From a virus, in the IMG/VR virus record IMGVR_UViG_3300034682_000058, positions 1-33,422 of that record: a stretch of 33,422 nt of DNA, one strand, 5' to 3'. Positions 24,216 to 33,340 of the stretch are shown here, one piece after another (within the stretch, counting starts at the first letter, position 1; every line of letters starts with the position of its first letter). The notes beneath the pieces are model-generated. The model was not told the origin of the DNA. It searched no databases and was given only the letters and a program-made list of their open reading frames with translations. Made by a program: the position numbers and the translations under genes.

Positions 24216-24291
24216 TGGTGCCGTCACGAGGATTCGAACCCCGGACCATTCGCTTACAAGGCGACCGCTCTACCGCTGGAGCTATGACGGC
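24216..24291 (-). tRNA. tRNA-Thr (anticodon TGT)
   Basis: All parts of a 76-nt tRNA are present on the - strand: 7-bp acceptor stem (GCCGTCA with TGACGGC), D-arm GCTC/GAGC, anticodon loop CTTGTAA with TGT reading ACA, 5-base variable loop, T-arm CGGGG/CCTCG with loop TTCGAAT, discriminator A and an encoded CCA. The outermost anticodon-stem pair is a G-A mismatch. ACA is rare in GC-rich Pseudomonas, so a phage copy could support late protein synthesis; from memory the Pseudomonas phage D3 also carries an ACA-reading tRNA-Thr. It lies between two terminators, in the late leader. Confidence 0.95.
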
Positions 24292-31393: not shown

Positions 31394-31422
31394 TTGACCG
31401 CCATTATGAGGATTCGTATAGT
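31394..31422 (+). promoter_or_regulatory. Strong pL-like promoter with operator-like sequence
   Basis: TTGACC (31394-31399), 17-base spacer, TATAGT (31417-31422), near consensus. ATTCGTATA (31412-31420) overlaps the -10, as at pR and pRM. It points right, away from cI, and starts the leader at about 31429. Confidence 0.82.
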
Positions 31423-31423
31423 T

Positions 31424-31819
31424 CACTCCATCGAGTCACCCAACAGGGACTCGCCAGGGCCTCACAGCCCGACCCGCTCTTTAAAAATTCAGAAGACGAT
31501 CCCGCTGCGGAAATAACAGCGGGGCCGCCTGTCCGGCAAGGACAGGGAGGGCCGATGCAAAGGCTCTGTCAAAACCAAACTATTAAGCCGCTACGCCTCT
31601 ACTGGGGACCGGCGATCTGATCTGACCTACCGCCTGGGGAGTGACTTGGGTGCTGGAAGGAAACGCAGGGAGAACCTGCGGCGGATCGAGGGATACCGAA
31701 CTGGCGAATGATCCAGATATGCGTAGCGAGAAGAAACAGAGATGCCGGGCCGCATATTGCAGCCCGGATGCTCTCCAGGTGGCCCTATCTCAGGACCACG
31801 CGGAAAGCAGGAGAAGCAG
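31424..31819 (+). other. Structured pL leader, no convincing gene
   Basis: About 400 bases with several clear hairpins and no frame I trust. Beyond the boxA/boxB-like block there are CGCAGG-GAGAA-CCTGCG (31664-31680, a pentaloop like lambda boxB) and CCGGGC/GCCCGG (31745-31767). A 48-codon frame from 31719 with basic residues (MRSEKKQRCRAAY) has no ribosome site. A nut-type antitermination leader or a separate small RNA is possible; both are inference. Confidence 0.55.
31476..31546 (+). promoter_or_regulatory. nut-like element: boxA plus tandem hairpins
   Basis: GCTCTTTAAAAATT (31476-31489) closely matches bacterial boxA (TGCTCTTTAACAA). It is followed by a 7-bp hairpin (31501-31523, 9-base loop) and a 7-bp hairpin with pentaloop GGCAA (31528-31546), close to the GACAA loop I recall for P22 boxB. 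It lies about 50 bases after the predicted pL start. Confidence 0.62.
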
Positions 31820-32104
31820 ATGCAGCTTCACATTGATGTTGATGCGACAAAAACAATCGCACTAATTGAATCCATGCGAGCCGACCTAGCTGCCCTTAAA
31901 CAGATTCCCGAGTTTCCCGTCGATGAACTCCTTCGCCTTGGTGATGGCCTGCTCTCTCACCTCGCCGTAGGGGGCGGATGCGCCACAGTCGTTGCATGTG
32001 ATGGTCGACTCGTCGTTCAGGTCGTCGGGGTGCTGGAAGTCTTTGCAGCCGCACTTGCTGCACTGAAGCTCTATGTTCATGCGGTATTGCCTCAACGGTT
32101 GTAG
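31820..32104 (+). CDS. Possible small pL-transcript protein, antisense to the zinc-ribbon gene
   Basis: A 94-residue frame starting MQLHIDVDATKTIALIESMR with AGGAG 6 bases before the ATG, a strong site. The first 35 residues look natural (helical, LAALKQIPEFPVDELLRLGD). The rest overlaps almost the whole of the well-supported zinc-ribbon gene on the other strand and has the Val/Ala-rich look of antisense translation. It may be a genuine short gene whose original end was replaced, or a chance frame behind a real leader. Confidence 0.35.
   Translation: MQLHIDVDATKTIALIESMRADLAALKQIPEFPVDELLRLGDGLLSHLAVGGGCATVVACDGRLVVQVVGVLEVFAAALAALKLYVHAVLPQRL
31886..32080 (-). CDS. Small zinc-ribbon protein
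   Basis: A 64-residue protein starting MNIELQCSKCGCKDFQHPDD. Cys 7 and 10 with Cys 29 and 32 (TCNDCGA) form a zinc ribbon; a basic helix follows (EQAITKAKEFIDGKLG). GAGG stands 9 bases before the ATG. It is the first - strand gene inside the otherwise rightward pL region and may have its own promoter near 32114-32140. Such proteins are common in Pseudomonas phages; function unknown. Confidence 0.75.
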   Translation of the reverse strand: MNIELQCSKCGCKDFQHPDDLNDESTITCNDCGASAPYGEVREQAITKAKEFIDGKLGNLFKGS

Positions 32105-32628: not shown

Positions 32629-32750
32629 TTGCCTAGCCCTCAAGAAATGAGCTTTAAAGTTTAGGCGGTTATTCCCTCATTTCACATAAGCGCTGATGTT
32701 AACTGTTTGAGTGCTTCTCACTGAGTAGCCGTGATGGCCATAGAGTGAGA

Positions 32751-32910
32751 CCGCATCGGAGTGTGCAATCGCAGGATGCAACCTTGGAGGCAGCGGCATT
32801 GACTAGGCGGGTTGCTCCGCTGACTAGATGCCGGCGATCAACTGATCACTGTTTCGAGAAATCCCCCTGAGGTGGCGGTTCGACTCCGCCGATTGCACAC
32901 CCCGATGCGG
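32751..32910 (+). ncRNA. Structured RNA candidate with tRNA-like T-arm
   Basis: The ends pair over 21 positions: CCGCATCGG (32751-32759) with CCGATGCGG (32902-32910), then one A/C mismatch, then GTGTGCAATCG (32761-32771) with CGATTGCACAC (32890-32900). Just inside the 3' strand is a perfect T-arm, GGCGG-TTCGACT-CCGCC (32874-32890), with the canonical T-loop. Inside, GCAACC/GGTTGC (32778-32783 with 32810-32815) and CAGCGG/CCGCTG (32791-32796 with 32817-32822) could form a pseudoknot; CGGCAT/ATGCCG is an alternative. There is no anticodon arm and no CCA. It is not a normal tRNA and too short for tmRNA. Strand is set by the T-loop. Confidence 0.6.
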
Positions 32911-32967: not shown

Positions 32968-33111
32968 ATGCTCCTACTGTTCCTGATCGGCGCAGCGCTC
33001 AGCCATGCGCGGCCAGAACCGCCACCTGATGACGGCCTGCCAACCGATCCACTGCGCTTCCATCGTGAGCGCTGGCGTTCTCGACCGGGGCTATCGGCGT
33101 TCTGGCGCTGA
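32968..33111 (+). CDS. Possible 47-residue exported or membrane peptide
   Basis: MLLLFLIGAALSHARPEPPP starts this short frame: a hydrophobic N terminus like a signal peptide (residues 1-12), then a Pro/Asp-rich and finally an Arg/Trp-rich tail. GGAG stands 7 bases before the ATG. It lies just after the structured RNA. The evidence is the ribosome site and the signal-like start only. Confidence 0.45.
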   Translation: MLLLFLIGAALSHARPEPPPDDGLPTDPLRFHRERWRSRPGLSAFWR

Positions 33112-33170
33112 CGGTCCCGCCCAAAACAACCGGAATTCATTAAGCAACACCGGCAAGCTGCATCTGATCG

Positions 33171-33200
33171 AAAAGGCCCTTCCGTCCAGTTGGGCCTTTT
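33171..33200. terminator. Terminator-like hairpin in the pL region
   Basis: AAAAGGCCC (33171-33179) and GGGCCTTTT (33192-33200) form a 9-bp stem with a 12-base loop. It is symmetric, so either strand could be terminated. Confidence 0.65.
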
Positions 33201-33206
33201 CACTAC

Positions 33207-33288: not shown

Positions 33289-33340
33289 AATGCACTCCCC
33301 TCCGCGCCCAACGGCAACCAGCGGAGCGGATGAGTGCATT
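33289..33340. repeat. Long imperfect hairpin before the last gene
   Basis: AATGCACTC (33289-33297) pairs with GAGTGCATT (33332-33340); inside, CTCCGC pairs with GCGGAG. On the + strand GTTTTG follows, so it may be a terminator or an RNA control element ahead of the gene at 33379. Confidence 0.55.

Follow-up and report, generated by a model that had tools for sequence, protein, structure and literature searches.

HK022 put consists of two short stem-loops and is present at both pL and pR. GOLLD, ROOL and the other ornate phage-associated RNAs are structured phage RNAs with kissing loops, and they are much larger than the element described here and conserved throughout. We compared these and other systems with a 160-letter element of the window, the whole stretch of 33,422 nucleotides from virus record IMGVR_UViG_3300034682_000058 that was analysed. 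Like HK022 put, the element belongs to the early transcript of its lambdoid phage, is structured and overlaps no protein gene; however, the elements of its family occur in one copy, measure about 120-170 nt and have a hypervariable interior. Copies at both early promoters were not found in the 27 genomes positive for the family pattern, which could miss diverged copies. Kissing loops, a feature of GOLLD, ROOL and similar RNAs, also occur in the family, but the element had no Rfam match. A T-arm with the consensus loop, stacked on an acceptor-like helix, is shared with tRNA (RF00005) and tRNA-like structures, and one family member (L268) passes the tRNA gathering score. In contrast to tRNA, the element has no CCA, its acceptor lies inside a 20-bp helix and there is no normal anticodon arm; the element of the window was missed by both ARAGORN and Rfam, and many siblings have kissing loops instead. 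The T-arm on an acceptor-like helix is also found in tmRNA (ssrA), and we take GGTTCGACGG of interior type L041 to recall the tmRNA D-region, but the element is far smaller, has no tag frame and received no Rfam or ARAGORN call. The element also resembles svsR, a lambdoid prophage RNA near cI that affects the host; svsR, however, is a simple 77-nt hairpin from enteric prophages that lies at the 3' end of cI, with no frame and no payload exchange reported (PMC12803456).

The element in the window and its surroundings

The features of the element and its leader were located as follows (positions in the window, strand, feature and evidence).

31394..31422, +, probable pL promoter, sigma-70-like (TTGACC-17-TATAGT), after cI and its terminator; consensus match only
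31475..31523, +, putative nut-like site, boxA-like CGCTCTTTAA and hairpin CCCGCTG..CAGCGGG; from the sequence
32699..32705, +, leader motif TTAACTG, conserved, ahead of the element; found in the majority of the family as TTAACTGCCCGA
32717..32749, +, small hairpin CTCACT..AGTGAG ahead of the element, differing between family members; CTCTC..GAGAG or CCTGG..CCAGG there in siblings
32751..32770, +, 5' strand of the closing helix, frame A, CCGCATCGGAGTGTGCAATC; pairs with 32891-32910, covariation in the family and in the distant homologue L315
32771..32890, +, exchangeable interior (payload) of the window type; replaced by unrelated interiors in sibling phages, and its model R1 finds L315
32795..32832, +, inner hairpin GGCAT-UGA-CUAG-GCGG-GUUGCU-CCGC-UGA-CUAG-AUGCC; compensatory pair 32806/32824 (G-C to U-A) in L003
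32874..32890, +, T-arm, GGCGG (32874-78), loop TTCGACT (32879-85) and CCGCC (32886-90); from the sequence, a compensatory T-stem change in L315 and T-loop enrichment
32891..32910, +, 3' strand of the closing helix, GATTGCACACCCCGATGCGG; pairs with 32751-32770, covariation in the family and in L315
32919..32933, +, small hairpin GCGG..CCGC after the element; CCGC-GAAA-GCGG or CCGC-GCAA-GCGG there in siblings
33170..33201, +, inverted repeat GAAAAGGCCC..GGGCCTTTTC resembling a terminator, after the RNA; from the sequence

The closing helix showed 19 pairs and one A.C mismatch (A32760, C32901). A 21st position, G32771-C32890, competes with the outer pair of the T-stem. The T-arm, with a 5-bp stem and a TTCRANY loop, is stacked on the closing helix with a spacer of 0 nt. 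Compared with a 7-bp acceptor the helix is 13 positions longer, and it is followed on the 3' side by CACCCCGATGCGG. The element carries no CCA and no anticodon, and a free acceptor end with NCCA was not found; a tag reading frame and a match to the tmRNA model were likewise absent. ARAGORN on the window called no tRNA or tmRNA in the element, and no Rfam family among 4227 reached its gathering score there, with no tRNA up to an E value of 10. A kissing partner for the T-loop of the element was sought and none was found.

The folding energy of the 160-letter stretch was -78.4 kcal/mol (z -6.0), and none of 200 shuffles was as low. The interior alone gave a z of about -1, which is an ordinary folding energy. 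The case for RNA therefore rests on comparison, because the z of -6 is due almost wholly to the closing helix and the energy of the interior is unremarkable.

In annotated phages the element is located downstream of cI on the same strand and before the left-operon genes, in a gap without annotated RNA, and the family as a whole belongs to the leader of the left operon (pL) in lambdoid phages and prophages of Pseudomonas. In the window the element lies ~1.3 kb beyond the promoter and the boxA-like site. The leader of the window contains TTAACTG and is missing CCCGA; the leader motif upstream and the hairpin downstream that accompany the frame A family are both present. The left operon of JBD44 is reported to rise 2 to 5 minutes after infection (PMC11898732), a result about the JBD44 operon and not about the element.

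A terminator-like repeat after the element was also found in L001, L253 and others. Downstream of the RNA, 52 of 143 distinct loci (e.g. L019, L001 and L253) showed a Shine-Dalgarno sequence and then an ATG with a stop 0-3 codons after it, compared with 7 among the shuffled controls; examples are GGAGGATGACCATCATGTGA, GGAGGATTGGCAGCCATGTGA and ATGAAATAG, and this arrangement is a predicted conserved start-stop minigene. In the window the place of the minigene (32969-33112) holds a 47-codon ORF (MLLLFLIGAALS..RPEPPP..) with relatives in L078, L114 and L117. A second structured element, TGCACTCCCCTCCGCGCCCAACGGCAACCAGCGGAGCGGATGAGTGCA, was seen at 33289-33340, past the terminator and immediately ahead of the operon's first gene; variants of it that are also paired occur in L001, L253, L052 and others. 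On the minus strand the window encodes a tRNA-Thr (TGT) at 24216-24291 and a small zinc-ribbon-like protein at 31886-32095, the latter with a weak match to Lar (restriction alleviation) below the Pfam cut-off.

A constant closing helix and its exchanged interiors

The first relatives, SC_8_H2H8_2017 and MT835699, were found by blastn through a common 3' helix end and flank, and both showed the same helix as the window with an unrelated interior. A pattern made from the helix only matched at least 120 viral contigs. The pattern also matched 27 of 399 genomes of Pseudomonas species, with one copy each, and the reversed-pattern control matched 0; one of the 27 (L302) resembles a chance match and was left out of the analysis. 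Most matches outside Pseudomonas had no frame context and hence were not used. The family comprised 166 elements, 140 of them distinct, from the IMG/VR and GTDB collections, which are redundant samples. They fell into 33 interior clusters set by a k-mer threshold, some of which have a common scaffold and different payloads. At Rfam gathering scores, the element of the window and the payload loci gave a single match to the 4227 families, L268, as tRNA. Matches to Trp_leader, mir-3660 and rsmX in related loci were below gathering and lay far from the element or in other hairpins, and were rejected.

The window has the frame A helix, GCATCGG-N-GTG..CAC-N-CCGATGC, with the paired extension. The pattern fixes part of this helix, where pairing is no evidence, and the unfixed positions (0 and 12-18) were tested. 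These positions were 97% paired compared with 88% in shuffles, and showed 48 changes on both sides against a shuffle mean of 10.8 and a maximum of 18. With one element per cluster the result was the same, and 0 of 1000 shuffles reached it. Two helices found without the pattern were diverged but paired, one in Aurca01 (GCATCGGTCTGCAATCTC..GAGATTGCAGATCGATGC) and one in the P. aeruginosa frame (GCTGTATCGGAGAGTGGTCTG..CAGACCACTCCCCCATACAGC).

The A.C mismatch at helix position 8 (32760/32901 in the window) was present in 45 of 106 distinct helices, and also in the P. aeruginosa frame. Apart from position 8, the closing helices contained 33 G.U and 8 A.C on the plus strand, and this excess of G.U favours the plus strand. 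The minus strand of the element folded slightly better (z -6.8), because the A.C turns into G.U on that strand. An RNA from the minus strand was rejected: T-loops occur on the plus strand only, G.U predominates there elsewhere in the helix, and plus is the strand of cI and pL. The initial annotation, which had the RNA on the plus-strand pL transcript, was right on this point.

Pattern searches found only two close relatives of the window interior, L003 and L004. The window type is rare, with three near-identical copies and one distant copy. L003 differed from the window by a G-C to U-A double change compatible with a CUAG/CUAG helix (32803-06/32824-27), and by one C to U change in the closing helix that is still paired as G.U. 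We then used a covariance model (R1) built from the window interior only, with the closing helix excluded. Among 30 genomes, R1 found the distant copy, L315, in one (E 8.9e-4); these genomes had been picked for carrying the frame, and the presence of L315 in the frame is therefore supportive but not fully independent. The hit is on contig C7, and the helix-pattern match of the same genome is on C6. L315 lies in the same frame, with the leader GACGGCCCGATG, an upstream hairpin and a paired closing helix of other sequence, none of which is in R1. No match was found in 119 further Pseudomonas genomes searched with R1 under stricter filters.

In L315, 6 pairs of the closing helix were changed on both sides and still paired, and the T-stem showed one change on both sides, G32874-C32890 to A-U. 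The closing-helix pair 32754/32907 was lost, and the inner hairpin was only partly kept in the alignment. The initial annotation had looked to compensatory changes in precisely the closing helix and the T-stem for support. Its long closing helix with one mismatch is confirmed by the 19 pairs with A32760.C32901 and by the both-side changes in the family and L315, and its canonical T-arm in the 3' part, on an acceptor-like helix, by the sequence and the L315 change. It was also right that the element has no anticodon arm, CCA or tag frame, in agreement with the missing ARAGORN and Rfam calls, and that no named family covers the element, for which Rfam gave no match. The two crossing inner helices that it had described as a possible pseudoknot are uncertain, as is the inner fold of the window's interior; L003 instead supports the CUAG/CUAG helix. 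The inner hairpin proposed at 32795..32832 comes from one such event and differs from the minimum-energy fold. Both the family and the structure have good support, and the 160-letter stretch represents a real folded RNA.

Three closing-helix frames were distinguished: A, that of the window; B, GCAGATG..CATCTGC, often a second module downstream; and P, of P. aeruginosa phages. The same interior was found inside all three. Payloads were 115/121 identical between L043 (A) and L255 (B), 112/114 between L111 (A) and L262 (B), 97/105 between L116 (A) and L306 (P), and 83/88 between L080 (A) and L257 (P). Phages MD8 and phi2 were identical over a 90-base stretch that leads up to the 5' helix strand and includes it, and over 26 bases of the 3' strand; their interiors differ, and the gene that follows is the same in both. 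Payloads are not linked to particular neighbours, since 12 interior clusters occurred on one 3' flank type and a single interior with up to 13 flank types. Comparison thus shows a long closing helix at a constant position, framing an independently folding interior that is exchanged between phages. In L078, L085 and L255 a second module (GCAGATG..CATCTGC, with the same kissing-loop scaffold) followed the first, as tandem RNA modules.

Interior architecture and tRNA likeness

Compensatory changes on both sides were found within the own helices of several interior types, including the T-stem of type L041. Folding energies of the interiors were ordinary (mean z -0.4). Many clusters have a hairpin, its stem 4-5 bp long, 0-2 nt from the closing helix on the 3' side, which is the T-arm position; on the 5' side another hairpin comes after the helix strand and a short linker. 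In the commonest scaffold types the loops of the 3' and 5' hairpins could form 5 bp with each other, and four different sets of such loops were seen (GCUGA:UCAGC, ACUGA:UCAGU, GUCGA:UCGAC and GCCAA:UUGGC). Non-cognate loop pairs never exceeded 4, and among random loops with this composition 0.6% reached 5. A consensus T-arm formed the 3' hairpin in 4 of 33 interior clusters, against 0.02 expected, and in no case on the minus strand; a T-loop is absent from many interiors.

L268, inside the frame, scored 29.6 bits with the Rfam tRNA model, compared with a gathering score of 29, and on this basis tRNA likeness is real in part of the family. L059 showed a T-loop one base larger and a D-arm-like GCTC-AATGGTA-GAGC adjoining the helix. 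An anticodon-arm-like hairpin (CCTGA-CTCGTAA-TCAGG; CCCGA-CTAGTAA-TCGGG) was observed in L061, L084 and related interiors. Comparison thus shows, in some family members, that a 3' hairpin occupies the T-arm position and stacks on the closing helix; such members can make a tRNA-like elbow, either through a T-loop or through kissing with the 5' hairpin loop. Since siblings form the same joint with kissing loops, a T-loop that is a mere structural elbow is a serious alternative, and the T-arm, instead of pointing to mimicry, may be one way of building an elbow that the family has in common.

Candidate functions of the element

Our preferred reading, held tentatively and at somewhat less than an even chance, is that the element is an early left-operon slot for structured RNA cargo, in which the window would carry a tRNA-like payload acting in trans as a decoy. 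The element would be transcribed from pL early in infection or induction, and the closing helix would clamp, release or protect the RNA, perhaps as an RNase III site. The payload would then act in trans by binding a host factor. For the window type the likeliest partner would be a protein that recognises the tRNA elbow or T-arm, because this type has a true T-arm and no chargeable end; candidates are a tRNA-modifying enzyme, a tRNA-cleaving enzyme or a tRNA-based defence. That the payload occupies this partner as a decoy would be the simplest guess for T-loop payloads, and payload swapping would track differences in the host factors met by the phages. We favour action in trans for three reasons: payloads pass from one frame to another, they are independent of the gene that follows, and each genome has a single copy. 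However, homologous recombination at the conserved helix would swap cis elements too.

A leader element that works in cis, either by modifying RNA polymerase or through control of a terminator downstream (HK022 put-like or a left-operon attenuator), is unlikely. In its favour, the element is situated after pL and ahead of the operon genes, the hairpins on its flanks are constant, a terminator-like repeat comes after it in the window, L001, L253 and others, and the start-stop ORFs with Shine-Dalgarno sequences stand downstream in 52/143 loci. Against it, each genome has one copy while a put-like system needs both pL and pR, the window already has a nut-like site adjoining pL, and the same flanks and downstream genes occur with interiors of no common sequence; an antiterminator as first choice was rejected on the single copy and the nut-like site. 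The control element of the pL transcript suggested by the initial annotation keeps its position on that transcript, but a purely cis role is weakened by the uncoupling of interiors from downstream genes and by the single copy per genome. The tRNA mimic or decoy that it also suggested gains from L268, which passes the tRNA threshold, and loses from the many members with a kissing-loop hairpin at the T-arm place. With a single element in view, it was correct that the RNA is real and did not recognise the helix as a frame common to many RNAs whose interiors are exchanged.

Interchangeable and numerous payloads would also suit a base-pairing small RNA, with the frame stabilising or releasing a payload that pairs with host or phage transcripts, and phage or prophage small RNAs acting on host genes are known (for example DicF, PMC5069750; svsR, PMC12803456). 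We consider this improbable: payload structure is conserved with changes on both sides, and the loops known as conserved pair inside the RNA itself. A scaffold in which the helix and compact fold block exonucleases or form an RNase III site, with the interior as filler, would agree with a helix of ~20 bp in every member and interiors variable in length and sequence, but is about as improbable, as interiors are kept, are common to distant phages and frames and carry compensatory changes that are unexpected for filler. The near-perfect inverted repeat and the recombination exchange at it could also reflect a palindrome acting in DNA as a recombination or protein-binding site with no RNA role. 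T-loops on one strand only, the excess of G.U on the same strand, the covariation between loops and the tRNA-model hit of L268 make this explanation very improbable indeed.

No description of this RNA family was found in the open-access literature or in annotation, and the structural family is new to the resources searched and apparently undescribed. The proposed reading as a slot for RNA cargo is new in kind. A further proposal, that in lambdoid Pseudomonas phages a constant early pL frame holds interchangeable tRNA-shaped RNAs that would act in trans to neutralise host factors, as a nucleic-acid counterpart of the anti-defence genes that phages exchange, is doubtful. If the cargo reading is true, a large class of phage RNAs would be invisible to gene-centred annotation, and temperate phages would trade folded RNAs in a shared frame like accessory genes. 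The family offers dozens of natural compact RNA folds, some of them tRNA-like, in phages that can be grown (MD8, phi2, PAJU2, JBD88b and LESphi3), and the natural cassette swaps between phages such as MD8 and phi2 make the function directly testable.
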